A stretch of 64,000 nucleotides of DNA from Henricia sp. BOLD:AAB3569 (taxonomy: Eukaryota; Echinodermata; Asteroidea; Spinulosida; Echinasteridae). Position numbers and translations under genes: made by a program. Below, one piece after another: positions 6,432 to 58,476 of this stretch (positions within the stretch are counted from its first letter, which is position 1; every line of letters begins with the position of its first letter). Below the pieces are notes generated by a model that was not told the DNA's origin, ran no database searches, and saw only the letters and a program-made list of their open reading frames with translations. The DNA lies in contig JBBELK010000445.1 of the NCBI GenBank assembly GCA_037783545.1, positions 1 through 64,000 of the forward strand. The letters run 5' to 3'.

Positions 6432-7960
6432 GTTTATTAGTAATCATTTAAATATATGACACAGTTAGCCTTTTGCACTATGGCTGGCGCCCTGAATTCT
6501 TCACTTTCAAATGGAGGTGCAGTTCTGAAAAAGTCTAAACATACTATATGCTGTTGTTGCAATGTGGTGCACGCATATGCCTTCGGCAACCATCAGCTTT
6601 ATGCAATTCTCTCCGTAAACACGGCATTGCTAATTTACTTCACACCATTATTGTTTGTCATGCCAACACTAATGAGAAATAAACCTGCCGGTATACTTCT
6701 AGTAAGTTTGCCATGCCAACACTAATGAGAAATAAACCTGCCGATATACTTCTAGTAAGTTTGCCATGCCGACACTAATGAGAAATAAACTTCACTTGTC
6801 CATGTTGTCATTCAACGGTACCTTATCTACATGGCCGCAAATATACATATGACATTTTAACATTTTCAAGAGGGCGTCGGTAGCCATCTTGAATTTAGAG
6901 GTCCAGATGGTACAAAAACGTAATAAATATCATTCTTAGTAGCAGATCTGTGATGCTAGAATTGGTAGAAAATGACACCTCGTTCGTTCACATGACTCAT
7001 CTTGTTCCAAATATACCACTTTTTTTGTTTTCAAGATGGCCGCCGTTAATTTGCCTTGAGAATCGCTTAAAGAGCTATAGAATTCCCTTTACAAAAAATC
7101 CAGCATTTGCACCTTTTTCGATAGTCCGCATATCCCTCCAGCCGACTTATACCGATGTTTATTTCAAATTGTCCGTTTTAAATGGATAAATGGCAAGCAA
7201 AAGTGCGGTTTTCGAAAATGAAATTTTCGCGATTTCTGAGACGCTCATTAGGTATTAATGATATGCGCATGACCCCGTGACGCAACACGAGTGAACAGGA
7301 AAACTTAAAAAATGTGGACGGGGGATACAAGCTGTTTAAATGGGTGTAACGTTATTACTATTTGGTGCAGAACGATAATTCAAATGTCTACCGTGGGGTT
7401 TTCAGGGTCAAGAAATTCACTGGTATCCACAGAATGGAAGTCGATTTGACCCTTCAATAATACATGTACAAATTCAAGACGAAAACCTTAATGATATAGT
7501 GTCTAACAGTTACGATCATATCAATTATATACACGTCTGCCACTCCTAAACCACCAGCGGACCACTATAGTGGTAACCAGCGGCAAACCTCCAGTGGCCT
7601 GCCACTCCTAAACCGCAGCAGACCACTAGCAGTAGCCGGCAACAAACCACCCGGTTGGAGGGAGCGACATCTTCAGGTTGCTCCAATCTGACCCCGAAAA
7701 TCTTGCATACATTACACGATTTGATAAACATTGGTACAAGTACACACGGTCAAATCCAAATTTCTGTGGTCTGTCCTCGTTTCACCACCCGTTACGCCTC
7801 TAAAGGACAAACCAGAGACACCCACATCATAAAATGAATAATTATTGTAAACCCACAGTTTTCATATCAACATGTAAATCAATTATAAAATACTGAGAAA
7901 CAAGGACATTTTAATATTACCCTTTACCGCATCCGAAAGGAAGACCATACCCCCGTCAGC
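6432..7960. repeat. 1.53-kb tandem repeat, copy 1
   Basis: First copy of a head-to-tail unit starting GTTTATTAGTAATCATTTAA. Relative to copy 2 it shows only scattered substitutions and small indels (1529 versus 1531 bp). Internal features are a 53-bp minisatellite with three GAGAAATAAAC sites (around 6674-6785), an AAGATGGCCGCCG block, and a short duplicated CTGCCACTCCTAAACC motif around 7538-7612. Open frames of 60-89 codons repeat in each copy and show no known domain. Confidence 0.95.
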
Positions 7961-13436: not shown

Positions 13437-13472
13437 GTTTTTAGGATTAACGGGAGAGGGTGTGGGTTCTGG

Positions 13473-13474
<2 letters not shown>

Positions 13475-13511
<37 letters not shown>
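13475..13511. repeat. Poly-G tract in the LINE 3' region
   Basis: About 36 consecutive G preceded by GGGGAGG, just after the LINE stop codon. It produces a false polyproline frame on the minus strand (13253-13534). Confidence 0.9.
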
Positions 13512-13512
<1 letters not shown>

Positions 13513-13791
13513 GTTTGACGTTAGAGAATGTCAACTTAAGGTTCTGTGGACAGTATCGTGCATCTGTGATAATTGTATGTATTGATACAATTTTTGGTAT
13601 TTTTATTTTTTTGGGGGGGTTTAGTATTTAACATAGAGTGCTTTGTGTTGTTTTGTTTTATGTAATTTTTTTATATTTGTGTAATTTTATATGTATATGT
13701 ATTTTTATGATTGCACATGGGAGAGCGTATTTCATGTAAGAATTATTTGCATGACTAATTTAAAAATCTGAATCTGAATCTGAATCTGAAT

Positions 13792-14171: not shown

Positions 14172-16369
14172 CTAGAGGTATGACGTTTGTTGTTACAAAC
14201 GCCAGGTGATCGGGTTAAATGAACATTTTGTGATGAATTTCAGACGTTGTTATCACCTGTGGAATGGCAAAAATGGAAGTTCAGCAGCCGATTTCACGAA
14301 ACTTTACGCAATTGCGCAAGTCCACTTACGCCATTACTTGCGCAATAACTTATGGCGTAAGTGGACTTGCGCAATTGCGTAAAGTTTCGTGAAATCGGCT
14401 GCTGTATACACTAATCCGGTAACTAATATCTCCTCCCTGCATATCCGCCATAGCTGGGGGTTGATAGCTTGCACCGTTTTGAGATATGAATTGTTGAAAT
14501 AATAACCTTTGAAATCTTGTAATGTGACACCTGTGACGACATCATGACGTCACAATTTTGTGCACAAATTGTTCAACAATTTGATAAACATCAAGTTCTT
14601 AAATGTGGCGAAAGAATCATGCAAATATCTGCTGTAGTTCTCAAGATACAGCATTTTAAAACATCTCAGCTCCAAATTTGCGTGATTTGACACCACATTA
14701 CGTAACCACCGTCCATGTAATGACGTCACCAATGGTATAGTCAAAAGGTCCACATGTGTGGAAACATTTCGTTCCGTAGAAATATGGTCAAAATCACTAC
14801 CACTTTGAATCTATTTGCATTCAAAATGCTAAAAAATTGCACATTTTCGAACAACTTCTGGTTTGGACCGGAAGTAGGCGTCACACAGGGGTCATGACAT
14901 CGTATGATTTGTTCAGTTCATTTAGACTTATCATGTTGTGAAATAATTGTTCAAGTATCTATTACGGTTCTTGAGATATGAATTTTGAAAATAATAACCT
15001 TTGAATTTTTGTAATTTGACACCTGTGACGATATCATGACGTCACAATGTTGTGCACAAATTGTTCAACAATTTGATAAACATCAAGTTCTTAGATGTGG
15101 CGAAAGAATCATGCAAATATCTGCTGTAGTTCTCAAGATACAGCATTTTAAAAAAATTCAGCTCCAAATTTGCGTATTTTGACGCCACATTACGTAACCA
15201 CCGTCCATGTGATGACGTCACAAATGGTATAGTCAAAAAGTCTACATGTGTGGAAACATTTCGTTCCGTAGAAATATGGTCAAATTCACTACCACTTTGA
15301 ATCTATTTGCATTCAAAACGCTTACAAAATGCACATTTTCGAACAACTTCCGGTTTGGACCGGAAGTAGGCGTCACACAGGGGTCATGACATCGTATGAT
15401 TTGTTCAGTTCATTTAGACTTATCATGTTGTGAAAGAATTGTTCAAGTATCTATTACGGTTCTTGAGATATGAATTTTGGAAATAATAACCTTTGAATTT
15501 TTGTAATTTGACACCTGATGACGTCATGATTACGTCACACTTGATGCCATCGTGATACTATACATTCTGGTGAAAGTCTGCCGTAGGGCCTATGTCTGTA
15601 TCTAATTTACTAACGATTCAGCTTGGTTTGATAGGCATTGTTGCTGGTAAGTGTAAAAACTGAGATTCTCAGTTTCGTTGAACTTTGACCTCCAATTGAC
15701 CCCAGAAGGAAGGGTCAGATGAAAATGCCCACACAAAGAAAATTGTAGCACAGAATGTCATCTGTAAACCTGCCAAATACGAAGATCCTGGGTCACGTGG
15801 TTTTCAAGACGGAAGCATTTTAAAATATGCATATTTTGTTTTTTTGGGGGGTGTAATTTGATACTTGATGACGTCACGATGACGTCACGCTTGATGCCAT
15901 CATAATATTATACACGCTGGTGAAAGTCTGCCATAGGACCTATGCCTGTACTTAGTTACTTAAAGATTCAGCTTGGTTTGATGGGCATTGTTGCTCAATA
16001 AGTGCAAAAATTGCGATTTTCGTTTTCGTTGAACTTTGACCTCAGATTGACCCCAGAAGGAAGGGTCAGATGAAAATGCCCACACGAAGAAAATCGTAGG
16101 CCATGATCTTATCTATAAGCCTGCTAAATACGAAAATCATGGGTCACGTGGTTTTCCAGACGGAAGCATTTTAAAACATGCATATTTTAGTCATTTTTGG
16201 GTTGTAATTTGATACCCAATGACGTCACAATGACGTCACCCTTGTATGCACACCTTCACATTGGGGTTGATGTTCCTACAAAGTTTCAAGTTGATAGCTT
16301 GAACCGTTTTGAAGAAAAGCTCTGGAAACGTTTGAGTGGAAAAAGAAAAAAAAAAAAAAAGAAAAAAAA
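14172..16369 (-). mobile_element. Helitron-like element A1, 3'-terminal part (family A)
   Basis: Read on the minus strand the element ends with CCCGATCACCT, a hairpin (GGCGTTTGT-AACA-ACAAACGTC), ATACCT and then CTAG at the junction. This is the usual Helitron 3' hairpin followed by CTRR. Its other end, with AGGTGATCGGG in inverted orientation, is found at 22259-22320 because A2 and A3 are inserted in the A-rich stretch before it. The body consists of repeated blocks containing TGACGTCA, GGTCACGTGG and paired CCGGAAGT. No Rep/helicase coding sequence. The open frames at 14550-14753 and 15042-15236 (minus strand) are two copies of the same block. Confidence 0.75.
14282..14404. repeat. 123-bp hairpin (palindromic MITE-like) within A1
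   Basis: CAGCAGCCGATTTCACGAAA at the left is matched by its complement at the right. The arms are about 52 bp with a short loop around ATTACTTGCGCAATAACTT. It is conserved at the same place in A2, A3 and A4. It may be a MITE that entered the ancestor of this subfamily, since A5 and A6 lack it. Confidence 0.9.
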
Positions 16370-18543
16370 CTAGAGGTATGACGTTTGTTGTTACAAACGC
16401 CAGGTGATCGGGCTAAATGAAAATTTTGTGATGAATTTCAGACGTTGTTATCACCTGTGGAATGGCAAAAATGGAAGTTCAGCAGCCGATTTCACGAAAC
16501 TTTACGCAATTGCGCAAGTCCACTTACGCCATTACTTGCGCAATAACTTATGGCGTAAGTGGACTTGCGCAATTGCGTAAAGTTTCGTGAAATCGGCTGC
16601 TGTATACACTAATCCGGTAACTAATATCTCCTCCCTGCAAATTCCGCCATAGCTGGGGGGTTGATAGCTTGCACCGTTTTGAGATATGAATTGTTGAAAT
16701 AATAACCTTTGAAATCTTGTAATGTGACACCTGTGACGACAGCATGACGTCACAATTTTGTGCACAAATTGTTGAACATCAAGTTCTTAAATGTGGCGAA
16801 GGAATCATACCAATATCTGTTGTAGTTTTCAAGATACAGCATTTTAAAACATCTCAGCTCCAAATTTGCGTGATTTGACACCACATTACGTAACCACCGT
16901 CCATGTAATGACGTCACCAATGGTATAGTCAAAAGGTCCACATGTGTGGAAACATTTCGTTCCGTAGAAATATGGTCAAATTCACTACCACTTTGAATCT
17001 ATTTGCATTCAAAATGCTAAAAAGTTGCACATTTTCGAACAACTTCCGGTTTGGACCGGAAGTAGGCGTCACACAGGGGTCATGACATCGTATGATTTGT
17101 TCAGTTCATTTAGACTAATCATGTTGTGAAAGAATTGTTCAAGTATCTATTACGATTCTTGAGATATGAATTTTAAAAATAATAACCTTTGAATTTGTGT
17201 AATTTGACACCTGTGACGATATCATGACGTCACAATGTTGTGCACAAATTGTTCAACAATTTGATAAACATCAAGTTCTTAAATGTGGCGAAAGAATCAT
17301 GCAAATATCTGCTGTAGTTCTCAAGATACAGCATTTTAAAACAATTCAGCTCAAAATTTGCGTATTTTGACGCCACATTACGTAACCACCGTCCATGTGA
17401 TGACGTCACAAATGGTATAGTCAAAAAGTCTACATGTGTGGAAACATTTCGTTCCGTAGAAATATGGTCAAATTCACTACCACTTTGAATCTATTTGCAT
17501 TCAAAACGCTTACAAAATGCACATTTTCGAACAACTTCCGGTTTGGACCGGAAGTAGGCGTCACACAGGGGTCATGACATCGTATGATTTGTTCAGTTCA
17601 TTTAGACTTATCATGTTGTGAAAGAATTGTTCAAGTATCTATTACGGTTCTTGAGATATGAATTTTGGAAATAATAACCTTTGAATTTTTGTAATTTGAC
17701 ACTTGATGACGTCATGATTACGTCACACTTGATGCCATCGTGATACTATACATTCTGGTGAAAGTCTGCCGTAGGGCCTATGTCTGTATCTAATTTACTA
17801 ACGATTCAGCTTGGTTTGATAGGCATTGTTGCTGGTAAGTGTAAAAACTGAGATTCTCAGTTTCGTTGAACTTTGACCTCCAATTGACCCCAGAAGGAAG
17901 GGTCAGATGAAAATGCCCACACAAAGAAAATTGTAGCACAGAATGTCATCTGTAAACCTGCCAAATACGAAGATCCTGGGTCACGTGGTTTTCAAGACGG
18001 AAGCATTTTAAAATATGCATATTTTGTTTTTTTGGGGGTGTAATTTGATACTTGATGACGTCACGATGACGTCACGCTTGATGCCATCATAATATTATAC
18101 ACGCTGGTGAAAGTCTGCCATAGGACCTATGCCTGTACTTAGTTACTTAAAGATTCAGCTTGGTTTGATGGGCATTGTTGCTCAATAAGTGCAAAAATTG
18201 CGATTTTCGTTTTCGTTGAACTTTGACCTCAGATTGACCCCAGAAGGAAGGGTCAGATGAAAATGCCCACACGAAGAAAATCGTAGGCCATGATCTTATC
18301 TATAAGCCTGCTAAATACGAAAATCATGGGTCACGTGGTTTTCCAGACGGAAGCATTTTAAAACATGCATATTTTAGTCATTTTTGGGTTGTAATTTGAT
18401 ACCCAATGACGTCACAATGACGTCACCCTTGTATGCACACCTTCACATTGGGGTTGATGTTCCTACAAAGTTTCAAGTTGATAGCTTGAACCGTTTTGAA
18501 GAAAAGCTCTGGAAACGTTTGAGTGGAAAAAGAAAAAAAAAAA
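16370..18543 (-). mobile_element. Helitron-like element A2, inserted in A1
   Basis: Starts with CTAGAGGTATGACG directly after an A-rich run (GAAAAAAAA) that is the 5'-subterminal region of A1. It is nearly the same as A1 in sequence and layout, including the 123-bp hairpin at 16480-16602. Its distal end is the second of three hairpin-bearing ends (22205-22258), left behind by insertion of A3. No coding sequence recognised. Confidence 0.75.
16480..16602. repeat. 123-bp hairpin within A2
   Basis: Second copy of the CAGCAGCC...GGCTGCTG palindrome, near identical to that at 14282-14404. Confidence 0.9.
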
Positions 18544-18653
18544 CTAGAGGTATGACGTTTGTTGTTACAAACGCCAGGTGATCGGGGTAAATGAACATTT
18601 TGTGATGAATTTCAGACGTTGTTATCACCTGTGGAATGGCAAAAATGGAAGTT

Positions 18654-18776
18654 CAGCAGCCGATTTCACGAAACTTTACTCAATTGCGCAAGTCCACTTA
18701 CGCCATTACTTGCGCAATAACTTATGGCGTAGGTGGACTTGCGCAATTGCGTAAAGTTTCGTGAAATCGGCTGCTG
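18654..18776. repeat. 123-bp hairpin within A3
   Basis: Third copy of the CAGCAGCC...GGCTGCTG palindrome, with two substitutions (ACTCAATTG and GCGTAGGTGG) that it shares with the copy in A4. Confidence 0.9.
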
Positions 18777-19776
18777 TATACACTAATCCGGTAACTAATA
18801 TCTCCTCCCTGCATATCCGCCATAGCTAGGGGTTGATAGCTTGCACCGTTTTGAGATATGAATTGTTGAAATAATAATCTTTGAAATCTTGTAATGTGAC
18901 ACCTGTGACGACATCATGACGTCACAATTTTGTGCACAAATTGTTGAACAATATGTTGAACATCAAGTTCTTAAATGTGGCGAAGGAATCATACCAATAT
19001 CTGTTGTAGTTTTCAAGATACAGCATTTTAAAACATCTCGGCTCCAAATTTGCGTAATTTGACACCACATTACGTAACCACCGTCCATGTCATGACGTCA
19101 CCAATGGTATAGTCAAAAGGTCCACATGTGTGGAAACATTTCGTTCCGTAGAAATATGGTCAAATTCACTACCACTTTGAATCTATTTGCATTAAAAATC
19201 CTAAAAATTTGCACATTTTCGAAGAACTTTCGGTTTGGACCGGAAGTAGGCGTCACACAGGGGTCATGACATCGTATGATTTGTTCAGTTCATTTAGACT
19301 TATCATGTTGTGAAAGAATTGTTCAAGTATCTATAATTATAATTTAGGCAGTTTCAACCCTTTTATTTTAAAGCCCACATCGATTTAAAATCAGTGTCAA
19401 TTGAAAGAGTGGTTATATATTGACTAGAAGAAATCTGTTTATTTTTTTCAAATCGGATTTTGCATTGCGAAGCTACAGTCGGTTTGGATAATTGAAAACA
19501 GGGTAAAAATTCATCGGCAGGTCAAAGGTTATCCTATGTTTTTCTTTATTTCTAATTTGGCACCGACAATGGTCACTGTGGCTTATACTTTTGGTTATAT
19601 ATCTTTGCTCAACTCTATCCTGGATGGCCCAAAGTTGGTACAAACAACAGTTATTAATATATGTACAAGGACAGATAATTAATTTATATTTAAAATACCT
19701 CATTTGCATAATAAATTAATAATTTATGCAAAAACGGTCAATTTTCAAGGGAAAACTCATTTTTCTCAAATTTATC

Positions 19777-19876
19777 TTAAGCAGGTTTGATTATTACAAT
19801 GCATCTTGCATCATTTAATTAAAGTATTTACTTTAATTAAATGATGCAAGACATTGTAATAATCAAACCTGCTTAA
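19777..19876. repeat. 100-bp near-perfect hairpin
   Basis: The arms run from TTAAGCAGGTTTGATTATTA on the left to its complement on the right. They have a single small asymmetry (CAT versus A) and a very short loop (ATTTA). The same structure recurs at 23585-23684. It could extrude as a cruciform or be a compact fold-back element. Confidence 0.93.
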
Positions 19877-20323
19877 CTACAGATAATTAGTTTATATTGA
19901 AATCCCATAATTTGCATAATTTATGCAAAAATGTTGATTGTTAAGGGAACCTTATTTTTCCCCAATTAATGTTGAAAAATAGATTGATAAGAGATACTGA
20001 TATAATCAAATCTGTCTATAGTCAAGATTGGGACTTGCATCAATAATTTAATTGACATAATCAATCACTGTATGTGTTAATTACCAAGCCAATACTATTT
20101 TGGAGAGGTGTGGATTGAGGGCAGCAAAAAAGAATGACAGGTAGCGCATCCACACACAAACTGTACAACTTTCCAAATTGCTTACAAAGTTACATTAAAT
20201 ACAAAACAGAGAAGAGAATGACGTATTATTCTTCAGAGATAAATAATTTATGTTTTGATCAAAACAAACGGATGTGGAGCCTAGAGGTTATATTTAAATC
20301 TTTACAAATAATAGTAATTACAG

Positions 20324-20416
20324 ATGTTACTACGGGCAGGAGGCTCAACTATGGATGACGATTCTGCATCATCAAGGGACTCGTACTACCCTTTTTCATC
20401 TTCAGGCTCACTGGTG
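20324..20416 (+). other. Candidate captured exon (93 bp, phase 0)
   Basis: AATAGTAATTACAG ends at 20323 (acceptor-like AG) and GTATGT begins at 20417 (strong donor). The enclosed 93 bp are open in one frame for 31 codons, starting with ATG and including a second in-frame ATG followed by MDDDSASSRDSYYPF and a Ser-rich stretch. This looks like the start of a host coding region, acidic and serine-rich. No family is recognised. The second copy (24132-24224) derives from the same event and does not add independent support. Confidence 0.35.
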
Positions 20417-22204
20417 GTATGTCACAGGACGAGGACCACAGAAAAGCTGCAAAAATAATTGACAAAGAATAATATTACTCAACAAATTATTTGCCTTCAT
20501 TTGTTAAGTAACAACTAAATATCTTTAATTGGTGTATCTGATATCACGTATTGTCTTTGAATGTTAATAAATTCAATATCAGTTACAAAATTGGCACACA
20601 ATTTTGCACAGATTGACGTAAAACGCAGGTTTTCTAACGCTGCATCATTGCTTGTTTCACGGGAATTACGAGATCATCGCGTATGCAGTGGGCACACCAC
20701 CGCCGTACGTCCCGGCCCTACACACGGCGTGGAACTCGGTCGTACGTCGGTGTGGACATTGCACGCGAGCGAAGTCTCGGATTCCTGCTCAACATGCCCT
20801 CCTAAAAGTACATTTTTGCGACAAATGGTAGGCCTTACGGACTTTTTGTCAGTATGGTAGGATTGTTTAATGTCTACTTTTGTATACATACCTTGTCGCT
20901 TGGTGATTCACGTTGATTATGGATCGCTTTATGGACGAGAAAAAATGTTTTTGATCGCAAAAGTTGCAACCCGCGGTCGATTTTGTACGCGAATGGACCC
21001 CAGGCTAGCTGGAAACATACTCTTTTCCGATGATGACGTTTCTAAGCCAACCGGCCAATCAGAACGCGCAAATCTTTACCCGAAGTGTTCCGATCTTATT
21101 TAGCCCGATTCGTTTTAGCGTTGAAGTGTGTACCACTGACACGAACTCGCCGGAAGTTGTGTGTGCCCATAGGAATGTGCAGTAACCACGGGCGCTGTGT
21201 GTGGAGTATATGGGGCTCTCTGTTTACGATAACAGAAGTAGTCCGTCTGTGGAACAGTATTACGGTTCTTGAGATATGAATTTTGAAAATAATAACCTTT
21301 GATTTTTTGTAATTTGACTCCTGATGACGTCATGATACTATACATGCTGGTGAAAGTCTGCCGTAGGGCCTATGTCTGTATCTAATTTACTAACGATTCA
21401 GCTTGGTTTGATGGGCATTGTTACTGGTAAGTGTAAAAACTGAGATTTCCGTTTTCGTTGAACTTTGACCTCCAATTGACCCCAGAAGGAAGGGTCAGAT
21501 GAAAATGCCCACACAAAGAAAGTTGTAGCACAGAATGTCATCTATAAACCTGCCAAATACGAAGATCCTGGGTCACGTGGTTTTCGAGACGGAAGCATTT
21601 TAAAATATGCATATTTTGGTTTTTTGGGAGGTGTAATTTGATACTTGATGACGTCACGATGACGTCACGCTTGATGCCATCATAATATTAAACACGCTGG
21701 TGAAAGTCTGCTATAGGACCTATGCCTGTACTTAGTTTCTTAAAGATTCAGCTTGGTTTGATGGGCATTGTTGCTCAATAAGTGCAAAAATTGAGATTTT
21801 CGTTTTCGTTGAACTTTGACCTCAGATTGACCCCAGAAGGAAGGGTCAGATGAAAATGCCCACACGAAGAAAATTGTAGGCCATGATCTGATATATAAGC
21901 CTGTCAAATACGAAGATCATGGGTCACGTGGTTTTCCAGACGGAAGCATTTTAAAACATGCATATTTTGGTCATTTTTGGTTTGTAATTTGATACCTAAT
22001 GACGTCACAATGACGTCACACTTGTATGCACATCTTCACATTGGGGTTGATGTTCCTACCAAGTTTTAAGTTGATAGCTTGAACCGTTTTGAAGAAAACC
22101 TCTGGAAACGTTTGAGTGGAAAAAGAAAAAAAAAAAAAAAAAAAAAAAAATAAAGAAATCGTACGAGAGCAATAGGTGATCGGGCTGTTGGCCCGATCAC
22201 CTAA

Positions 22205-22320
22205 TAAAGAAATCGTACGAGAGTAATAGGTGATCGGGCTGTTGGCCCGATCACCTAAAAAAAAGACAAAGAAATCGTACGAGAGTAATAGGTGATCGGG
22301 CTGTTGGCCCGATCACCTAA
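22205..22320 (-). mobile_element. Displaced 5' ends of A2 (22205-22258) and A1 (22259-22320)
   Basis: Directly after the A3 terminus two further copies of the same end appear in tandem. Each has AAAGAAATCGTACGAGAG, then a hairpin AGGTGATCGGG...CCCGATCACCT, then AA. The hairpins are at 22228-22256 and 22290-22318. The outermost end abuts TAAACCTG of the tandem unit at 22321. Three CTAG ends on the left and three hairpin ends on the right make the nest balanced. Confidence 0.8.
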
Positions 22321-22373
22321 TAAACCTGTCGGTATACTTCTAGTGAGTTTGTCATGCCAACACTAATGAGAAA
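22321..22373. repeat. 53-bp minisatellite unit of tandem copy 4, between two insertions
   Basis: TAAACCTGTC...GAGAAA is exactly one 53-bp minisatellite unit of the 1.53-kb repeat. It is bounded on both sides by Helitron-like termini and corresponds to 8211-8263 of copy 2. Confidence 0.92.
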
Positions 22374-22483
22374 CTAGAGGTATGACGTTTGTTGTTACAA
22401 ACGCCAGGTGATCGGGGTAAATGAACATTTTGTGATGAATTTCAGACGTTGTTATCACCTGTGGAATGGCAAAAATGGAAGTT

Positions 22484-22606
22484 CAGCAGCCGATTTCACG
22501 AAACTTTACTCAATTGCGCAAGTCCACTTACGCCATTACTTGCGCAATAACTTATGGCGTAGGTGGACTTGCGCAATTGCGTAAAGTTTCGTGAAATCGG
22601 CTGCTG
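22484..22606. repeat. 123-bp hairpin within A4
   Basis: Fourth copy of the CAGCAGCC...GGCTGCTG palindrome, sharing the two substitutions seen in A3. Confidence 0.9.
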
Positions 22607-23584
22607 TATACACTAATCCGGTAACTAATATCTCCTCCCTGCATATCCGCCATAGCTGGGGGGTTGATAGCTTGCACCGTTTTGAGATATGAATTGTTGA
22701 AATAATAATCTTTGAAATCTTGTAATGTGACACCTGTGACGACATCATGACGTCACAATTTTGTGCACAAATTGTTGAACAATATGTTGAACATCAAGTT
22801 CTTAAATGTGGCGAAGGAATCATACCAATATCTGTTGTAGTTTTCAAGATACAGCATTTTAAAACATCTCAGCTCCAAATTTGCGTAATTTGACACCACA
22901 TTACGTAACCACCGTCCATGTCATGACGTCACCAATGGTATAGTCAAAAGGTCCACATGTGTGGAAACATTTCGTTCCGTAGAAATATGGTCAAATTCAC
23001 TACCACTTTGAATCTATTTGCATTAAAAATGATAAAAATTTGCACATTTTCGAAGAACTTCCGGTTTGGACCGGAAGTAGGCGTCACACAGGGGTCATGA
23101 CATCGTATGATTTGTTCAGTTCATTTAGACTTATCATGTTGTGAAAGGATTGTTCAAGTATCTATAATTATAATTTAGGCAGTTTCAACCCTTTTATTTT
23201 AAAGCCCACATCGATTTAAAATCAGTGTCAATTGAAAGAGTGGTTATTGACTAGAAGAAATCTGTTTATTTTTTTCAAATCGGATTTTGCATTGCGAAGC
23301 TACAGTCGGTTTGGATAATTGAAAACAGGGTAAAAATTCATCGGCAGGTCAAAGGTTATCCTATGTTTTTCTTTATTTCTAATTTGGCACCGACAATGGT
23401 CACTGTGGCTTATACTTTTGGTTATATATCTTTGCTCAACTCTATCCTGGATGGCCCAAAGTTGGTACAAACAACAGTTATTAATATATGTACAAGGACA
23501 TAATACCTCATTTGCATAATAAATTAATAATTTATGCAAAAACGGTCAATTTTCAAGGGAAAACTCATTTTTCTCAAATTTATC

Positions 23585-23684
23585 TTAAGCAGGTTTGATT
23601 ATTACAATGCATCTTGCATCATTTAATTAAAGTATTTACTTTAATTAAATGATGCAAGACATTGTAATAATCAAACCTGCTTAA
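23585..23684. repeat. 100-bp near-perfect hairpin, second copy
   Basis: Identical in design to 19777-19876. Both arms are preserved. Confidence 0.93.
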
Positions 23685-24131
23685 CTACAGATAATTAGTT
23701 TATATTGAAATCCCATAATTTGCATAATTTATGCAAAAATGTTGATTGTTAAGGGAACCTTATTTTTCCCCAATTAATGTTGAAAAATAGATTGATAAGA
23801 GATACTGATATAATCAAATCTGTCTATTGTCAAGATTGGGACTTGCATCAATAATTTAATTGACATAATCAATCACTGTATGTGTTAATTACCAAGCCAA
23901 TACTATTTTGGAGAGGTGTGGATTGAGGGCAGCAAAAAAGAATGACAGGAAGCGCATCCACACACAAACTGTACAACTTTCCAAATTGCTTACAAAGTTA
24001 CATTAAATACAAAACAGAGAAGAGAATGACGTATTATTCTTCAGAGATAAATAATTTATGTTTTGATCAAAACAAACGGATGTGGAGCCTAGAGGTTATA
24101 TTTAAATCTTTACAAATAATAGTAATTACAG

Positions 24132-24224
24132 ATGTTACTACGGGCAGGAGGCTCAACTATGGATGACGATTCTGCATCATCAAGGGACTCGTACTACCCT
24201 TTTTCATCTTCAGGCTCACTGGTG
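24132..24224 (+). other. Candidate captured exon, second copy
   Basis: Same acceptor (TAATTACAG), 31 open codons and GTATGT donor as 20324-20416, with no change in the exon itself. Confidence 0.35.
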
Positions 24225-25954
24225 GTATGTCACAGGACGAGGACCACAGAAAAGCTGCAAAAATAATTGACAAAGAATAATATTACTCAACAAATTATTT
24301 GCCTTCATTTGTTAAGTAACAACTAAATATCTTTAATTGGTGTATCTGATATCACGTATTGTCTTTGAATGTTAATAAATTCAATATCAGTTACAAAATT
24401 GGCACACAATTTTGCACAGATTGACGTAAAACGCAGGTTTTCTAACGCTGCATCATTGCTTGTTTCACGGGAATTACGAGATCATCGCGTATGCAGTGGG
24501 CACACCACCGCCGTACGTCCCGGCCCTACACACGGCGTGGAACTCGGTCGTACGTCGGTGTGGACATTGCACGCGAGCGAAGTCTCGGATTCCTGCTCAA
24601 CATGCCCTCCTAAAAGTACATTTTTGCGACAAATGGTAGGCCTTACGGACTTTTTGTCAGTATGGTAGGATTGTTTAATGTCTACTTTTGTATACATACC
24701 TTGTCGCTTGGTGATTCACGTTGATTATGGATCGCTTTATGGACGAGAAAAAATGTTTTTTATCGCAAAAGTTGCAACCCGCGGTCGATTTTGTACGCGA
24801 ATGGACCCCAGGCTAGCTGGAAGCATACTCTTTTCCGATGATGACGTTTCTAAGCCAACCGGCCAATCAGAACGCGCAAATCTTTACCCGAAGTGTTCCG
24901 ATCTTATTTAGCCCGATTCGTTTTAGCGTTGAAGTGTGTACCACTGACACGAACTCGCCGGAAGTTGTGTGTGCCCATAGGAATGTGCAGTAACCACGGG
25001 CGCTGTGTGTGGAGTATATGGGGCTCTCTGTTTACGATAACAGAAGTAGTCCGTCTGTGGAACAGTATTACGGTTCTTGAGATATGAATTTTGAAAATAA
25101 TAACCTTTGAATTTTTGTAATTTGACACCTGATGACGTCATGATACTATACATGCTGGTGAAAGTCTGTCATAGGGCCTATGTCTGTATCTAATTTACTA
25201 ACGATTCAGCTTGGTTTGATGGGCATTGTTACTGGTAAGTGTAAGAACTGAGATTTTCGTTTTCGTTGAACTTTGACCTCCAATTGACCCCAGAAGGAAG
25301 GGTCAGATGAAAATGCCCACACAAAGAAAATTGTAGAACAGAATGTCATCTATAAACCTGCCAAATACGAAGATCCTGGGTCACGTGGTTTTCGAGACGG
25401 AAGCATTTTAAAATATGCATATTTTGTTTTTTTGGGTTGTGTAATTTGATACTTGATGACGTCACGATGACGTCACGCTTGATTCCATCATAATATTATA
25501 CACGCTGGTGAAAGTCTGCCATAGGACCTATGCCTGTACTTAGTTTCTTAAAGATCCAGCTTGGTTTGATGGGCCTTGTTGCTCAATAAGTGCAAAAATT
25601 GAGATTTTCGTTTTCGTTGAACTTTGACCTCAAATTGACCCCAGAAGGAAGGGTCAGATGAAAATGCCCACACGAAGAAAATTGTTGGCCATGACCTGAT
25701 CTATAAGCCTACCAATTACGAAGATCATGGGTCACGTGGTTTTCCAGACGGAAGCATTTTAAAACATGCATATTTTGGTCATTTTTGGTTTGTAATTTGA
25801 TACCTGATGACGTCACAATGACGTCACACTTGTATGCACATCTTCACATTGGGGTTGATGTTCCTGCCAAGTTTTAAGTTGATAGCTTGAACCGTTTTGA
25901 AGAAAAGCTCTGGAAACGTTTGAGTGGAAAAAAAAAAAGAAAAAAAAAAAAAAA

Positions 25955-28636
25955 CTAGAGCTTCGCGTTTGTGTTTTTTACAAACGCAAGGTGATCGGGT
26001 GACATAAACATTGAAATGATGATGACGACACAGTTTTGAGATTGTTTGAAAACTTGAGTTGTTTGATGTTGAAAAAGTATTGGAATTCTCAAGACATGAC
26101 TCTGACTATTCAACGCTAAAATTGTGTATCTGATGACCTCATAATTGTCAATCTCATCATAATGTTACTATTGTGTGCACAGATTGTTCAAGTATCTACT
26201 GAAGAACAACTTTTGACATGTATATGTGGTGAAAGAATCTTTTCAATATCTATTACAGTTCTAAAGATGTTGTCATTTGAGATCATATTACTGTAGTATA
26301 TCGCCGTGTGGGGAGTTGGGGTTCAATTGCATCTAGAATAAACTGACGCTCCAGTCAACTTGAGTTGCGGTCCACCATGTCCATTTTATTTCCAACACAG
26401 CAACGAATTCCAGCATGTCACATTCACAGTTTTCGGGGAGAAGACATATTTACTCTGGTCCGCCGACTAAGGCTAGCCGTACATAATTACACCTAAGATA
26501 CAACAGCTAAGTCACCAAAAGTAAATGTCCTTGTGCTATCAAGTGTTCATTCAACTTTCCTGGCGATGATGCCAAGGAAACTAGCAGTTTTACATCTTCA
26601 AAAGTCAAATTTTCTCGGTTGTAAATCAAGCCCTGCTTATTATGTCTTGTCTGTCTGACTTATTCACTACACGCGCACGTACGTACGTGTATCATTGGCC
26701 GTGTGGCCCAGACATCCTCCTTAAAAAGATACATTATGACCTCTGACCCGAGACAGGCCGCCTAGATACAAGTTCTATTATTAGAAGTCGAGCACTATAT
26801 ATGGGCGCAAATCGTCAGATTAGTGGAGGCTTGGCATAGCGCCCTCAAACGACTGAGTTAGCTAATTATCAAGGGACGCAACAAATAATTTCTCCACATT
26901 ACGTAACCACCGTACACGTGATGACGTCATCAGTGGTATATATGTAGTCATAAAGTCCACATGTGAGGGAACATTTCGTTCCGTAGAACTATGGTCAAAT
27001 TCCCTACCACTTTGGCTCTATTTGCATTCAAAGTGCTAAAAAAGTGTACATTTTCGAACCTCTTCCGGTTTGGACCGGAGGTTTGGGTCACACAGGGGTC
27101 ATGCCATTGTATGATTTGTTCAGTTCATTGCGACCTATCATGCTGTGAAAGAATTTTTCAAGTATCTATTACGATTCTTGAGATATGAATTTTTGAAATA
27201 AAAACCATTTAATTTTTGCAATTTGACACCTGTGACGATATCATGACGTCACAATGTTGTGCACAAATTGTTCAACAATTTGATAAACATCAAGTTCTTA
27301 AATGTGGCGAAAGAATCATGCAAATATATGTTGTAGTTCTCAAGATACAGCATTTTTAAACAATTCAGCTCCAAATTTGCGTATTTTGACACCACATTAC
27401 GTAACTACCGTCCATGTGATGACGTCACCAATGGTATAGTCAAAAAGTCCACATGTGTGGAAACATTTCGTTCCGTAGAAATATGGTCAAATTCACTACC
27501 ACTTTGAATCTATTTGCATTCAAAACGCTTTAAAAAATGCACATTTTCGAACAACTTCCGGTTTGGACCGGAAGTAGGCGTCACACAGGGGTCATGACAT
27601 TGTATGATTTGTTCAGTTCATTTAGACTTATCATGTTGTGAAAGAATTGTTCAAGTATCTATTACGGTTCTTGAGATATGAATTTTGGAAATAATAACCT
27701 TTGAATTTTTGTAATTTGACACCTGATGACGTCATTATTACGTCACACTTGATGCCATCATGATACTATACATTCTGGTGAAAGTCTGCCGTAGGGCCTA
27801 TGTCTGTATCTAATTTACTAACGATTCAGCTTGGTTTGATAGGCATTGTTGCTGGTAAGTGTAAAAACTGAGATTCTCAGTTTCGTTGAACTTTGACCTC
27901 CAATTGACCCCAGAAGGAAGGGTCAGATGAAAATGCCCACACAAAGAAAATTGTAGCACAGAATGTCATCTATAAACCTGCCAAATACGAAGATCCTGGG
28001 TCACGTGGTTTTCAAGACGGAAGCATTTTAAAATATGCATATTTTGGTTTTTTGGGGGTGTAATTTGATACTTGATGACGTCACGATGACGTCACGCTTG
28101 ATGCCATCATAATATTATACACGCTGGTGAAAGTCTGCCATAGGACCTATGCCTGTACCTAGTTACTTAAAGATTCAGCTTGGTTTGATGGGCATTGTTG
28201 CTCAATAAGTGCAAAAATTGAGATTTTCGTTTTCGTTGAACTTTGACCTCAGATTGACCCCAGAAGAAAGGGTCAGATGAAAATGCCCACACAAAGAAAA
28301 TTGTAGGCCATGATCCTATCTATAAGCCTGCTAAATACGAAAATCATCGGTCACGTGGTTTTCCAGACGGAAGCATTTTAAAACATGCATATTTTAGTCA
28401 TTTTTGGGTTGTAATTTGACACCCGATGACGTCACAATGACGTCACACTTGTATGCACACCTTCACATTGGGGTTGATGTTCCTACCAAGTTTCAAGTTG
28501 ATAGCTTGAACCGTTTTGAAGAAAAGCTCTGGAAACGTTTGAGTGGAAAAAGAAAAAAAATGAAAAAAAAAAAAAAAAAAAGACAAAGAAATCGTACAAT
28601 ATCAATAGGTGATCGGAAAAAGTTCCGATCACCTAA
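25955..28636 (-). mobile_element. Helitron-like element A5, inserted in A4 (variant subfamily)
   Basis: Starts CTAGAGCTTCGCG after an A run. The 3' hairpin is a variant (GCGTTTGT...ACAAACGC) followed by AAGGTGATCGGG. The distal end has a variant hairpin AGGTGATCGGA-AAAAGT-TCCGATCACCT (28607-28634). The stem changes are compensated, so the stem is maintained. It shares 26279-26880 with A6 and lacks the 123-bp hairpin. The rest of the body has the common TGACGTCA, CACGTG and CCGGAAGT blocks. Confidence 0.76.
26279..26880. other. Subfamily-specific internal segment shared by A5 and A6
   Basis: Matches about 31020-31630 in A6. It holds GTTCAATTGCATCTAGAATA, a CACTATATATGGGCGCAAAT stretch near 26791 (TATA-like words) and GCGCACGTACGTACGTG. 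It replaces sequences found in A1-A4, so it could be another acquired fragment. No exon is evident. Confidence 0.5.
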
Positions 28637-28698
28637 AAAAAAGACAAAGAAATCGTACGAGAGTAATAGGTGATCGGGCTGTTGGCCCGATCACCTAA
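28637..28698 (-). mobile_element. Displaced 5' end of A4
   Basis: AAAAAAGACAAAGAAATCG followed by the hairpin at 28668-28696 and AA, abutting TAAACCTGCC of the tandem unit. It completes the second nest: two CTAG ends and two hairpin ends. Confidence 0.8.
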
Positions 28699-28751
28699 TA
28701 AACCTGCCGGTATACTTCTAGTGAGTTTGCCATGCCGACACTAATGAGAAA
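28699..28751. repeat. 53-bp minisatellite unit of tandem copy 4, between the second and third insertions
   Basis: TAAACCTGCC...GAGAAA, exactly 53 bp, equivalent to 8264-8316 of copy 2. Confidence 0.92.
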
Positions 28752-28923
28752 CTAGAGCTTCGCGTTTGTGTTTTTTTACAAACGCAAGGTGATCGGGTGA
28801 CATAAACATTGAAATGATGATGACGACACAGTTTTGAGATTGTTTGAAAACTTGAGTTGTTTGATGTTGAAAAAGTATTGGAATTCTTAAGACATGACTC
28901 TGACTATTCAACGCTAAAATTGT

Positions 28924-30860
28924 ACTACTAGGTTTTCAGGCCAACATTTATTCCTTGCCCCAAACACCCAAACTATATATCAAATGAAAGGTCTTGATGA
29001 CAGAAATACAATGCTCTTTAAATGAAGAAAATCGGACAAGTACTTTTTGAGATATCCTGTTATATGTATTAAAATATCTATCATTCGATGAAGCCCGACC
29101 ATTCATCACTGCGTATACCCCACAATGGCCCCAAAACGACATAATTTGAATGATTTTAGTAACATAAATCAGTATAACCTCTGCTATAATTAAAGTATTC
29201 TCATAAAACTTTCTGCATAAGGGTAATGTGGTATGGTCTTTCAGAAAAAGTATAAATTATTTTAATAAAATGAATGGTTGCCATGGAAACAAGCATTTTA
29301 TTTTAATAAAATTAATGGTTGCCATGGAAACAAGCACATTTTCTCCAAAGAAAACAATATAATTTGACGTCTCCACAAACTTCAGATGAAATAACAGTTA
29401 CTGGCAATGATATAGCTGAACAAGTGATAAATAAAGGCCAGTAACATTATTTGAGGTATTGTATTACTCATCTTCAAGGTCAAAAGTCAATTTAAAGAAG
29501 TGGAGGATGCGGATGCTAGTGTGATACTCCGAGGTGGAGGGTTTTCCTGGTTTTCTTCTGGCTCGGCCATAGTCTTTAATCTTGATACTGGAAGTAGAGA
29601 CAACAGGATAGTTTATTAAGTAGAGACAACAGGATAGTTTATTATACCATGCCCTCACTTAAGATTTAGTTAACTTTCTCCTTTTTTTTTTTTAATGACC
29701 TGACTGAAACAATTAGGGCGGCTATGAGTATGACTTTTAAAAACTTGTAAGTTGTAGGCCTATTCTCTTTAATACTTAAAGTTTGGTTTGTATTTATTGT
29801 TTTAATTGTATTTACAGCTGATATAGTGAACAAAATAAAACATATCAATTCGACAACCAAAAAACTTAGATCTGCCCCTCCAGGAATGCGAAAAAAACAT
29901 ACCTCTAGTAATAATGGTATCGCCCAAAAAAGGCATTGTGCATCCTATGTACGAACTACGATTATACCATTTTTTTTAAATATGGGGAGGGTTATACCTT
30001 CCTTTCAAAATTGAACGGACAGGAGGCCTAAAAAAATCGGCTAATTGTAATTCTGACGTCCCTAGAAATATATCCTGCATATATGTGAGATGTGTATTTT
30101 GTTATAAAATTACCAAAACAGCATGATTTTAAGACTTAGTGGTTGACACAACCAGATTCCAACGACCGGGGTCACGCCGTGCTTTCACGGGCGAGTGCCC
30201 CATTCAATAGGCCAACACACGCACGCACATGTAGGCGTTCGTTTCTATCAAAAGAGCTTTTGAAAGGGTATAGAAAATACGCTCTCCGTAAAAAAATAAA
30301 CACATTTAACATTCCAAACTCGCACAAATAATTGTTAAGACATGTAAAATTCATTCAGTGAAACCTCCTACCTTTCAAAATGAAGATTTCACCTCAAGAA
30401 ATTGAGTTTACTTTTCCCTTTTTCGTAACTTCGGTTGTAGACCACCTACCGATAACGAGGACGCAATGACGAGTACAGTATCCCTTCAGCTATTCAGGGA
30501 AACCATTTTCATGTACGTCACAAGTATTCGGATCCGCGGAAAGCACCCGAAGTGCATGCGCGCCCAGCCGAGCGGCAATTTTTATGGGCCGAATACTCGC
30601 GATCGCAACGCTTCGGGAAAAGCTGGTCGGGGCGAGAGTAGTTCATTCATAAAAGCCTGGGCTGTCGGTCATACCTCCGACGGCTGTTTTATGTACGTTA
30701 GTGAATGACTGAAACTCTAAGCTTTCTAATGAACTGTTGCTCGTTAGATTTGGACAGGTAAAAGTGGATGATTTTTTGAGATGAAAAATAGTAAGATTTT
30801 GGTGCGGGCTGTGCGCTGTGTGTGCAGAGGGCTTCAGTCTCGTACAATTGAACTGAAAAA
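28924..30860. other. 1.94-kb private segment in A6 (possible captured host DNA)
   Basis: In A5 the flanks CGCTAAAATTGT and CTGATGAC are almost adjacent, while in A6 1.94 kb lies between them. The segment is unrelated to the one in A3 and A4. It contains two direct duplications (a 40-bp unit with GGTTGCCATGGAAACAAGCA at 29257-29336, and about 26 bp at 29592-29641), a CpG-rich patch (30530-30640) and a minus-strand exon-like piece (29468-29587). Confidence 0.6.
29468..29587 (-). other. Candidate captured exon on the minus strand (120 bp)
   Basis: Minus strand: TTGTCTCTACTTCCAG, a pyrimidine-rich acceptor, ends at 29588. The following 120 bp are open in one frame, including DYGRARRKPGKPSTSE and ending in LEDE. 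GTAATA, a weak donor, follows at 29467. An alternative reading inside it starts ATGGCCGAGCCAGAAG (MAEPEENQENPPP...) and stops after 27 codons. No protein family is recognised. The orientation is the same as the element's own 5'-3' direction. Confidence 0.25.
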
Positions 30861-33380
30861 CTGATGACGTCATCATTGTCAATCTCATCATAACGTTACT
30901 ATTGTGTGCACAGATTGTTAAAGTATCTACTGAAGAACAAGTTTTGACATGTAGGCCTAGGCCTATATGTGGTGAAAACATATTTACAATATCTATTACA
31001 GTTCTGAAGATTTTGTAATTTGAGATCATATTACTGTAGTATATCGCCGTGTGGGGAGTTGGGGTTCAATTGCATCTAGAATAAACTGACGCTCCAGTCA
31101 ACTTGAGTTGCGGTCCACCATGTTTATTTTATTTCCAACACAGCAACGATTTCCAGCATGTCATGCACATTCACAGTTTTCGGGGAGAAGACATATTTAC
31201 TCTGGTCCGCCGACTAAGGCTAGCCGTACATAATTACACCCAAGATACAACAGCTAAGTCACCAAAAGTAAATGTCCTTGTGCTATCTAGTGTTTATTCA
31301 ACTTTCCTGGCGATGATGCCACGGAAACTAGCAGTTTTACATCTTCAAAAGTCAAATTTTCTCGGTTGTAAATCAAGCCCTGCTTATTATGTCTCGTCTG
31401 TCTGACTTATTCACTACTCGCGCACGTACGTGTATATCATTGGCCGTGTAGCCCAGACATCCACCTTTAAAAGATACATAAATGACCTCTGACCCGAGAC
31501 AGGCGCCTAGATACAAGTTCTATATTATTAGAAGTCGAGCACTATATATGGGCGCAAATCGTCAGATTAGTGGAGGCTTGGCATAGCGCCCTCAAACGAC
31601 TGAGTTAGCTTAATTATCAAGGGACCCAACAAATAATTTCTCCACATTACGTAACCACTGTGCACGTGATGACGTCATCAGTGGTATATATGTAGTCATA
31701 AAGTCCACATGTGAGGGAACATTTCGTTCCGTAGAACTATGGTCAAATTCCCTACCACTTTGGCTCTATTTGCATTCAAAGTGCTAAAAAAGTGTACATT
31801 TTCGAACCTCTTCCGGTTTGGACCGGAGGTTTGGGTCACACAGGGGTCATGCCATTGTATGATTTGTTCAGTTCATTGCGACCTATCATGCTGTGAAAGA
31901 ATTGTTCAAGTATCTATTACGATTCTTGAGATATGAATTTTTGAAATAATAACCATTTCATTTTTGTAATTTGACACCTGTGACGATATCATGACGTCAC
32001 AATGTTGTGCACAAATTGTTCAACAATTTGATAAACGTCAAGTTCTTAAATGTGGCGAAATAATCATGCAAATATCTGCTGTAGTTCTCAAGATACAGCA
32101 TTTTTAAACAATTCAGCTCCAAATTTGCGTATTTTGACACCACATTACGTAACTACCGTCCATGTGATGACGTCACCAATGGTATAGTCAAAAAGTCCAC
32201 ATGTGTGGAAACATTTCGTTCCGTAGAAATATGGTCAAATTCACTACCACTTTGAATCTATTTGCATTCAAAACGCTTTAAAAAATGCACATTTTCAAAC
32301 AACTTCCGGTTTGGACCGGAAGTAGGCGTCACACAGGGGTCATGGCATCGTATGATTTGTTCAGTTCATTTAGACTTATCATGTTGTGAAAGAATTGTTC
32401 AAGTATCTATTACGGTTCTTGAGATATGAATTTTGGAAATAATAACCTTTGAATTTTTGTAATTTGATACCTGATGACGTCATGATTACGTCACACTTGA
32501 TGCCATCATGATACTATACATTCTGGTGAAAGTCTGCCGTAGGGCCTATGTCTGTATCTAATTTACTAACGATTCAGCTTGGTTTGATGGGCATTGTTGC
32601 TAGTAAGTGTAAAAACTGAGATTCTCAGTTTCGTTGAACTTTGACCTCCATTTGACCCAAGAAGGAAGGGTCATATGAAAATGCCCACACAAAGAAAATT
32701 GTAGCACAGAATGTCATCTATAAACCTGCCAAATACGAAGATCCTGGGTCACGTGGTTTTCAAGACGGAAGCATTTTAAAATATGCATATTTTGGTTTTT
32801 TTGGGGGTGTAATTTGATACTTGATGACGTCACGATGACGTCACGCTTGATGCCATTATAATATTATACACGCTGGTGAAAGTCTGCCATAGGACCTATG
32901 CCTGTACTTAGTTTGTTAAAGATTCAGCTTGGTTTGATGGGCATTGTTGCTCAATAAGTGCAAAAATTGAGATTTTCGTTTTCGTTGAACTTTGACCTCA
33001 AATTGACCCCAGAAGGAAGGGTCAGATGAAAATGCCCACACGAAGAAAATTGTTGGCCATGATCTGATATATAAGCCTGCCAAATACGAAGATCATGAGT
33101 CACGTGGTTTTCCAGACGGAAGCATTTTAAAACATGCATATTTTGGTCATTTTTTTGTTGTAATTTGATACCCGATGACGTCACGGTGACGTCACACTTG
33201 TATGCACACCTTCACATTGGGGTTGATGTTCCTACCAAGTTTCAAGTTGATAGCTTGAACCGTTTCGAAGAAAAGCTCTGGAAACGTTTGAGTGGAAAAA
33301 GAAGAAAAAAAAAAAAAAAAAAAAAAGACAAAGAAATCGTACGATATCAATAGGTGATCGGGTTGAGCCCGATCACCTAA

Positions 33381-34523: not shown

Positions 34524-35613
34524 TACTTGATATCATGAACTGTATCAGTTTACTGAGTTTGTTTAGTATGTCATTTGCAACAATCCTGACAAGTTTGTTT
34601 GAGCCAAAAATGAATCAGTGGGGTACTGTTAATGTTTATAATGTAATGTTTTTGTTTTGTTTCCCAACTTTGGGTTTCTTCCATGTCTAGCTTTAAACAG
34701 CGCCCTCGCCTGTCATGAACATTTTGAAGTAAAGAAAAGGTCACTTCTTTCTGAAATAAAACAAATTTGAGATTGCCCCTTTGTCTGCAGCAGTTTGATC
34801 TTTTGATTTGTGTATAAAACCAGCTTGTTGTTAGTGTTCACTTCACAAATCTTTTAAGTATTTACTTGTGTTTGTATGAATAAGAACTAAGCAAATGCTT
34901 TTACTGGAAAGCATTTGCTAAATACTGAAAGTATTTACTTTTTATTTGCCACACAACTAGAATTTGCTTTGATTTGTATGGATAAAACAGAGTAAATGCT
35001 ACTAATTTCAACTGTGTAGGCAACCACATAGGCCCCTATAGTATTGAACATTTACTACAATTTTCACCAGTAGATGTTGAACAGTAAAAGAAAATTTTAA
35101 TATGATAATATAGCACCCACAACGTCTTTTCCCGTTCTCCTTGGTAAATATTGGAGTCCCAATTCCAAGTTGTGCCTTGCTAAGTAAACAAGATGGCGTC
35201 GCAACTCTATATCTATCAAGGGACTTTACCTCATGAGGGTGAAACGCTCTCTACAGGTAAAATGTTATTGTATATACATCAGACACCTCAAAATATCAAG
35301 ATTTCTTAAATGAATCAAAATAATACCTCGATCAGTAAAGAAATGTCTATATTTTACAATCATATTACAAAATTTAACAGAATAAATTTGACTTGGCACA
35401 CTGCGACATCAAATTTTTAAGAAATAGTTGAAAATACATGTAAAAGAAATGGCAGTTTTTTGTCAATTTTATTGATTATCTGTCCCTCACGCACAAAAAC
35501 AACCTCCTCATAAAACTGTAAAGTCAATTTCAACATGTGATAAATTGGGTGTGTGTGTATATTAACGTCAGTAAAAGGTAAACAAACAGGTTCACTTTAG
35601 TTTTCATTTGTTG
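34524..35613 (+). repeat. Dispersed repeat, copy 2 (partner at 4221-5011)
   Basis: Collinear with 4221-5011 at both ends (TACTTGATATCATGAACTGT at the start, AAACAAACAGGTTCA near the end). About 34880-35290 carries extra sequence absent from the other copy. The plus-strand frame at 34397-34690 overlaps the repeat and is not conserved in the first copy. Confidence 0.8.
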
Positions 35614-40888: not shown

Positions 40889-41249
40889 AACCCAAGAAAA
40901 CAGTGTTTATCGGGTGTAAAATGCGATGGTGTGAATGTAATGTGCACAAAATTGCCCAAAAAATTATGGGTGGGGGGTTAAAAGACGGAAGAAAACAGTG
41001 CAGTGTGAAACGCCCTATATAAAGCACACGCGGAAAATGTGCGCTGGTAGATCGCCTGTCACTTAGCATAATATGATAGCCATTTAATGGGCCGGGACTC
41101 TTATCAGTGCCACAGTGGAACGCTGACAAAAGGGTTTTTATGTGCATGGCACGGGTATTGTTCAGCACGTCAACTGCCCTTTTGTTCAGCGATACGTTAT
41201 ATTATAGGTCATAACGTTCGCTTACGTACCGTTCCATGCTAGATACCTA

Positions 41250-53400: not shown

Positions 53401-53545
53401 TGTACATGTACATGTACGGTATGCATTTACATTGTACAAAGTGTAGATGTAGTATTATACAGCATGCAGTTTTACATGCATACAAACATACAAAAAAAGA
53501 AAAGCGGAAAGCCATATGCTCTGTTATCAACAGACATACTTCTAG
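49078..53545 (+). mobile_element. Helitron-like array, family B, inverted block
   Basis: Same roughly 990-bp repeat units in opposite orientation. CTAG ends lie at 51452-51455 and 53542-53545, each preceded by the AACAGACATACTT terminal word. Around 51341 the unit is truncated: GGTAGCAGA passes directly into GTGTACAGAGTGTACATGTA, an internal deletion joining two parts of the unit. Confidence 0.72.
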
Positions 53546-53665
53546 TCTTTTGTGTATGTTTGTATGCATGTAAAACTGCATGCTGTATAATACTACGTAC
53601 ACTTTGTACAATGTAAATGCATACCCTACATGTACATGTACATGCACAGTGAAAAGATTCAAAAA
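53380..53665. repeat. Tail-to-tail inverted repeat at an orientation switch
   Basis: The inverted block ends with CTAG at 53545. The sequence immediately returns in forward orientation, lacking the terminal hairpin (starting TTTTGTGTATGTTTGTATGC). About 110 bp on each side are complementary, with a roughly 60-bp asymmetric centre holding the terminal hairpin. Confidence 0.85.
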
Positions 53666-58432: not shown

Positions 58433-58463
<31 letters not shown>

Positions 58464-58476
58464 GAACAGTTTCAAA
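53546..58476 (-). mobile_element. Helitron-like array, family B, second forward block
   Basis: The first unit lacks its CTAG end (truncated at 53546). A complete CTAGAGGTATGTC end follows at 55578 after an A run. Successive repeats of the 67-codon frame are 990, 877, 991 and 991 bp apart; the shorter step contains the CTAG junction. The block closes with a long A run at 58433-58460. Confidence 0.7.

Follow-up and report, generated by a model that had tools for sequence, protein, structure and literature searches.

In a 64,000-nucleotide stretch of DNA from the sea star Henricia sp. BOLD:AAB3569 (contig JBBELK010000445.1 of assembly GCA_037783545.1, positions 1 to 64,000 of the forward strand; hereafter the window), one copy of a 1.53-kb tandem unit carries six mobile elements of one family at the three sites of its 53-bp minisatellite, where they form nests of three, two and one. 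The original prediction had counted three Helitron-like insertions, a number which turns out to be wrong. The whole region is very probably explained by the nested insertion of non-autonomous Helentron-like elements (HINE/DINE-1) at T-tracts: the junctions, the equal numbers of 5' and 3' ends, the common target motif and the distinct subtypes of the elements are all directly observed.

Results

The minisatellite is present, in about 2.5 copies, within each 1.53-kb unit; in copy 1 it lies at 6653..6811 (plus strand) with three empty sites. A motif scan of the window detected the empty-site motif GAGAAATAAAC nine times on the plus strand—at 6674, 6727 and 6780 in copy 1, at 8205, 8258 and 8311 in copy 2, at 9736, 9789 and 9842 in copy 3—and 0 times on the opposite strand. 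The GAGAAA|TAAAC sites are unoccupied in copies 1-3 (9/9) and occupied in copy 4 (3/3), where both 53-bp spacers, 22321..22373 between sites 1 and 2 and 28699..28751 between sites 2 and 3 (plus strand), are intact, complete units differing by 1 to 5 bases from the minisatellite units of copies 1-3. At all three filled sites the junctions read GAGAAA-CTAG on one side and CCTAA-TAAAC on the other, as detected by scans for GAGAAACTAG (at 14166, 22368 and 28746) and CCTAATAAAC (at 22316, 28694 and 33376). Empty sites, filled sites with whole spacers, and junctions had thus been correctly described from the start, down to their coordinates.

Self-comparison and motif scans of the filled interval reveal six insertions, all on the minus strand, sites 1, 2 and 3 holding 3, 2 and 1 elements. 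Six 3' ends (CTAGAG on the plus strand) start at 14172, 16370, 18544, 22374, 25955 and 28752, and six 5' hairpins (AGGTGATCGG...CCGATCACCT) end at 22202, 22256, 22318, 28634, 28696 and 33378, so that the ratio of 3' ends to 5' hairpins is 3/3, 2/2 and 1/1 at the three sites. At site 1 the outermost element, A1, has its 3' end and body at 14172..16369 and its 5' hairpin displaced to 22259..22320, where it abuts the minisatellite; A2, inserted in the T-tract of A1, occupies 16370..18543 with its 5' hairpin displaced to 22205..22258; and A3, complete (3661 bp) and inserted in the T-tract of A2, extends over 18544..22204. At site 2 the body and 3' end of the outermost B1 (22374..25954) are separated from its 5' hairpin (28637..28698) by B2, complete and 2682 bp long (25955..28636), which sits in the T-tract of B1. 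Site 3 holds C only (28752..33380, 4629 bp).

The inner 3' ends adjoin A-rich tracts on the plus strand, i.e. T-tracts in the element sense. When the inner elements are removed in silico, the left flank GATTTCTTT ... T-tract ... CCAC is restored as it stands in the uninterrupted A3, B2 and C, and no duplicated bases are left at the closed host tracts. Body and hairpin agree in type within nest B, both being type 2 for the inner element and type 1 for the outer one (subtypes are described below). These observations favour the insertion of the three inner elements inside earlier ones. Integration of a circle by homologous recombination was also considered, and rejected: it would join a 3' end to a 5' end, which is the case for 0/3 inner junctions, each 3' end abutting the host T-tract.

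Read in the element sense, the empty sites are GTTTA|TTTCTC (three times, in the minisatellite), CTTTA|TTTTTT (for A3) and CTTTTTT|TTTTTT (for A2 and B2). The motif TTTW|TTT on the element strand spans 6/6 insertion points, without target duplication. The background has 64 such sites in 26.1 kb (both strands); the complete 1531-bp unit U2 has five, again counting both strands, three of which are the minisatellite sites. If this rule is accepted the insertion positions become expected ones, and the surprise of the triple occupancy depends on the target preference. Besides, every element carries a long oligo-T tract ~53-95 nt inside its own 5' end, and the inner insertions fall within this tract, after host nucleotides 62, 54 and 62. 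Nearly all sense-strand TTTWTTT sites of the three hosts are located in this left-flank tract (17/18, 6/6 and 20/20); for two of the other three elements the ratios are 20/20 and 15/16.

The unusually strong target preference proposed originally therefore holds as a preference for T-tracts, TTTW|TTT being present at all six points, but TT or T-rich targets were already published for the HINE group (PMC4067079, PMC7492417). The canonical A|T target finds no support. An A|T cut is possible at four of the six points, the three minisatellite sites and that of A3, while the other two lie within T runs; the placement of the ends is ambiguous by 2 nt. Because the elements begin with TT and their 3' flank with TTT, the cut is uncertain by 0 to 2 bases (A|T, T|T and T|T+1 being indistinguishable), and inside the T runs by more than 2.

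The CCTAA side of the elements is the 5' end and bears a perfect hairpin, whereas the CTAG side is the 3' end, with a subterminal repeat followed by a palindrome. The 5' end, read on the minus strand, is TT-AGGTGATCGG(GC) plus its complement in 6/6 copies, in keeping with the ~2-4 nt that separate this repeat from the 5' end in Helentron/HINE elements; the first hairpin arm recurs near the 3' end as CCCGATCACCT, also in 6/6, and CTAG, palindrome and subterminal repeat are found on all six. In C the 5' hairpin, AGGTGATCGGG and its complement, lies at 33352..33378 (minus strand), and its equivalents on the same strand at 22174-22202, 22228-22256, 22290-22318, 28607-28634 and 28668-28696. The 3' signals of A1 (14181..14214, minus strand) consist of CCCGATCACCT, which ends 32 nt from the terminus, and after it a 24-nt palindrome that stops 9 nt short of the terminus; in C, the other 3' end that was folded, the palindrome lies ~10 nt away. 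Both distances are inside the 8-35 nt range of Helentron/HINE palindromes. Against shuffled sequences the fold z-scores are -6.8, -7.5 and -8.5 for three 5' ends and -4.9 and -3.1 for these two 3' ends.

This anatomy, including central satellite-like repeats of 492 and 351 bp, makes it very likely that we deal with non-autonomous Helentron-like (HINE/DINE-1) elements rather than with canonical Helitrons. The 5' end is TTAGGTG in 6/6 copies, not the TC of canonical Helitrons, although the 3' end also has a feature of the canonical type: CTAG fits CTRR, and the palindrome lies 9-10 nt from the end, against 10-12 nt for the hairpin of canonical Helitrons. Open reading frames (ORFs) fully inside the elements reach at most 140 amino acids and no coding gene was recognised among the 10 of 42 listed ORFs scanned, so that the class is assigned on anatomy and not on a transposase. 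A Helitron-like nature without target duplication, as first proposed, is supported, with the more precise attribution given here; the orientation was reversed. A canonical Helitron in that reversed orientation is rejected because the 5' hairpin is on the CCTAA side and the 3' signals are on the CTAG side. The ambiguity of the ends would formally allow ends CTAG...CACCT with a duplication of two bases (AA), but the Helentron-like anatomy disfavours this reading.

A second HINE-like family, F2, occupies 45190-64000, with the 3' end CTAGARGTATG and the stem GGCTTTCCGC. Its stem is unrelated to that of the six elements (family F1), but its 3' terminal bases are similar. Within the window this array, which has internal repeats of ~990 bp, contains a single complete 5' hairpin and nine 3' ends, of which seven point one way and two the opposite way. 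Five of the nine are inserted in the tract of another F2 copy, directly after AAGCT (plus strand), which supports insertion into the elements' own tracts. Of the other four, one falls in the A's adjoining a 5' end of F2 and two in other F2 sequence, and the one at 45193 is in unrelated DNA (flank TTTCTATATG). The stack of 5' ends that nesting predicts would fall outside the window, which leaves F2 as only a candidate for nesting. The array also contains two inverted repeats, 47657-50498 and 51343-55690, whose arms are 95.4% and 93.3% identical and whose joints lie near 49077 and 53547. One of them could be explained by a minus-strand F2 that inserted into an F2 of the plus strand, the other by an inversion or by a joint of the assembly. 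The F2 pattern and the F1 5' end pattern gave 0 matches in viral contigs, and the F1 3' end pattern 0 in genome contigs, the viral and prokaryotic collections searched being little informative for such elements.

The minisatellite itself contains ATACTTCTAG, a perfect 10-base match to the F2 3' terminus situated ~14-24 nt from the insertion point, on the plus strand at 6693, 6746, 8224, 8277, 9755 and 9808 and in the two spacers, in an orientation opposite to that of the F1 insertions. ATACYTCTAG matches the 26-kb background eight times, always within the minisatellite. The sampled frequency of the match is 0.00054, in random sequence of equal base composition and for a motif picked after being seen. 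The 1.53-kb unit as a HINE in its own right was rejected: copy 1 showed no such hairpin or subterminal repeat, only this 10-base match.

Elsewhere in the window, a LINE-like (long interspersed nuclear element) insertion with an (AATCTG)n tail separates copies 3 and 4 at ~10893-13789, its reverse transcriptase match being over the Pfam cut-off in the second ORF and under it in the first. A protein search with one LINE fragment gave 1895 matches, catfishes and the snail Nucella being among the 120 listed. A second reverse transcriptase fragment lies at 41239-42195 (minus strand, two ORFs), and direct repeats ~90% identical flank the region at 4221-5011 and 34524-35613.

Discussion

Are the three filled sites the result of separate events? 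A1 (2260 bp) and A2 (2228 bp) are short type 1 elements, 98.97% identical over 2226 aligned positions; A3 and B1, long type 1, exceed them by ~1.9 kb and are 98.87% identical over 3638 positions; B2 and C, type 2, have a distinct 3' end in common and share 95.8% over 2528 bp plus 98.8% over 172 bp by BLAST, B2 being internally deleted relative to C (global alignment gives 93.5% but misplaces the 1.9-kb deletion). The outermost elements are thus of three subtypes, A1 short, B1 longer and C with another 3' end. This speaks against the duplication of a filled unit, or an assembly duplicate, and points to separate events.

One could nevertheless imagine that a single 53-bp unit, once filled, was copied through unequal exchange or gene conversion and that its elements diverged later. 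The close identity of A3 and B1, which lie on either side of spacer 1, goes in this direction when set against the divergence of the tandem units, ~1.5-1.9% (11/737 between U4 and U3, 14/736 between U4 and U2). So does the linear order, in which the subtype pairs are adjacent (A1 A2, A3 B1, B2 C), as by our count in 6 of 90 orders. However, in addition to the three outermost subtypes, A3 is the innermost element of its site and B1 the outermost; with two spacers and three sites, copy 4 has as many units as the empty copies; spacer 2 has the CCGACAC variant of the second unit of copies 1-3, though it is unit-1-like at two other unit-specific positions; and a tree built from the 5' part does not place B2 and C as sisters. 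We consider such a duplication improbable.

To about the same degree we doubt that the nests were formed elsewhere, each then moving in as a composite from its outermost 5' hairpin to its outermost 3' end. Helitrons with several 5' termini do exist in Fusarium, for which an origin by self-insertion was proposed (PMC5148889), but here replication would have had to skip one or two intact inner 3' ends, and nothing in the window requires composites.

Still less credible is the insertion, at once, of truncated tandems made as rolling-circle concatemers after the terminator was bypassed or lost. This is the explanation given for plant arrays of truncated Helitrons, in which numerous 5' ends accompany a single 3' end (Xiong et al., cited in PMC12628747), and F2, with its seven plus-strand 3' ends and one 5' hairpin in the window, could at first sight recall them; its other 5' ends, however, may lie beyond 64000. 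In the F1 arrays the 5' and 3' ends are equal in number and the 5' ends stacked. Moreover, concatemers of one template would be alike, so that the mixture of subtypes within an array (A2 short with A3 long, B1 type 1 with B2 type 2) counts against them. Lastly an assembly artefact, with repeats misjoined or duplicated at T-tracts, might be feared as all inner junctions lie in homopolymers, where assemblers fail, but it is hardly compatible with copies that differ even in the best pairs, minisatellite junctions exact at three sites and whole spacers.

Nested insertion at T-tracts, which we favor, has also to face observations that weigh against it. All three outer insertions are in one unit and none at the other nine sites, so the motif alone is insufficient; if the 12 sites were equal, the odds of finding the three in one of four units would be 4/220 by our arithmetic. 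Six events make up the target logo, and three of these hit copies of a single sequence. In C only 16/22 sense TTTWTTT sites are in the tract, and in F2 4/9 insertions are outside it, the 3' flanks at 53545 and 58678 not starting with TTT. The close kinship of A3 and B1, the mixed variants of spacer 2 and the separation of B2 from C in the 5'-part tree weigh against independent events; spreading between sites within the minisatellite, also suggested originally, or a degree of gene conversion may have taken place. Identities are also a mosaic: A1 and A2 reach 99.7% in the 5' part, where A3 and B1 fall to 96.8% as compared with 98.9% overall, which hints at later gene conversion. Finally, a Pfam scan of 10 of the 42 listed ORFs gave none over the cut-off and weak sub-threshold matches in 3, with no transposase or autonomous partner in the window.

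Nested insertion of Helentron-like elements suggests the following course of events. Non-autonomous elements would have moved by rolling-circle transposition, with a transposase presumably supplied in trans, and, leaving no target duplication, inserted at T-rich sites with the element-strand motif TTTW|TTT. The three target sites, 53 bp apart in the minisatellite, would each have been filled separately by a different subtype. The elements' own oligo-T tract would then have been the best landing site nearby, and three further elements would have inserted there, each shifting the 5' hairpin of its host outward and adding a fresh T-tract; the expected outcome is 5' hairpins stacked on one side and bodies with their 3' ends in a row on the other. 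The nests put the six insertions into a time order, and any order beyond what nesting forces is conjectural.

The kind of element and the type of target are already known; what is new is the stack architecture and the landing pad that the elements carry themselves. Equal stacks of both ends, or a left-flank tract used as a landing site, were not found described in the open-licence literature searched, which is weak evidence of novelty. It is conceivable, though we advance it tentatively, that some HINEs carry in the oligo-T tract of their 5' end a built-in landing pad, preferred by the next copy and renewed at each insertion. Such a pad, for which two families with unrelated ends are the examples here, would offer a general and self-perpetuating way for HINE arrays and composites with stacked 5' ends to form. 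More boldly, the terminus-like motif of the minisatellite may help to attract the transposase. If the phenomenon is general, arrays of rolling-circle elements could grow without concatemers, by repeated insertion into the T-tract that every copy brings, and it could be a source of the Fusarium composites with several 5' ends. Equal, stacked ends offer a simple structural test between nesting and rolling-circle read-through.

Tandem and nested Helitrons are known in general, and insertion-site preference was put forward as a major source of dimers (McGurk and Barbash, as quoted in PMC12628747). The closest relatives in the literature are the HINE/DINE-1 elements (PMC4067079): in these too a subterminal inverted repeat lies 2 nt from the 5' end beside a complementary arm, a palindrome comes after the subterminal repeat close to the 3' end, the target is T-rich or TT without duplication, the centre has tandem repeats and no coding capacity was found (here among the 10 of 42 listed ORFs scanned). 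They differ by the distance from the 3' subterminal repeat to the terminus (38-60 nt in mite families, 32 nt here), and the description, as far as it is available, mentions no nests in which 5' and 3' ends are stacked in equal number. Cg_HINE of Crassostrea gigas (PMC7492417) is alike in anatomy: its subterminal repeats measure 11-12 bp and have a complementary arm, its left flank contains a simple repeat, its central repeats are satellite-like and its target is oligo-T; its left-flank repeat is mostly a 4-nt microsatellite, whereas here it is an oligo-T tract serving as landing site. FoHeli of Fusarium oxysporum, of the Helitron2 type (PMC5148889), also has asymmetric terminal inverted repeats, end hairpins and multiple 5' termini explained by self-insertion, but mostly as a duplicated 5' terminus of less than 200 bp with a single 3' end, while here each nested copy keeps both ends. 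The truncated Helitron arrays of plants (Xiong et al., via PMC12628747) resemble ours by their head-to-tail look and by copies without one end at the joints; they combine many 5' ends with a single 3' end, whereas the Henricia nests have equal numbers of both and mixed subtypes.

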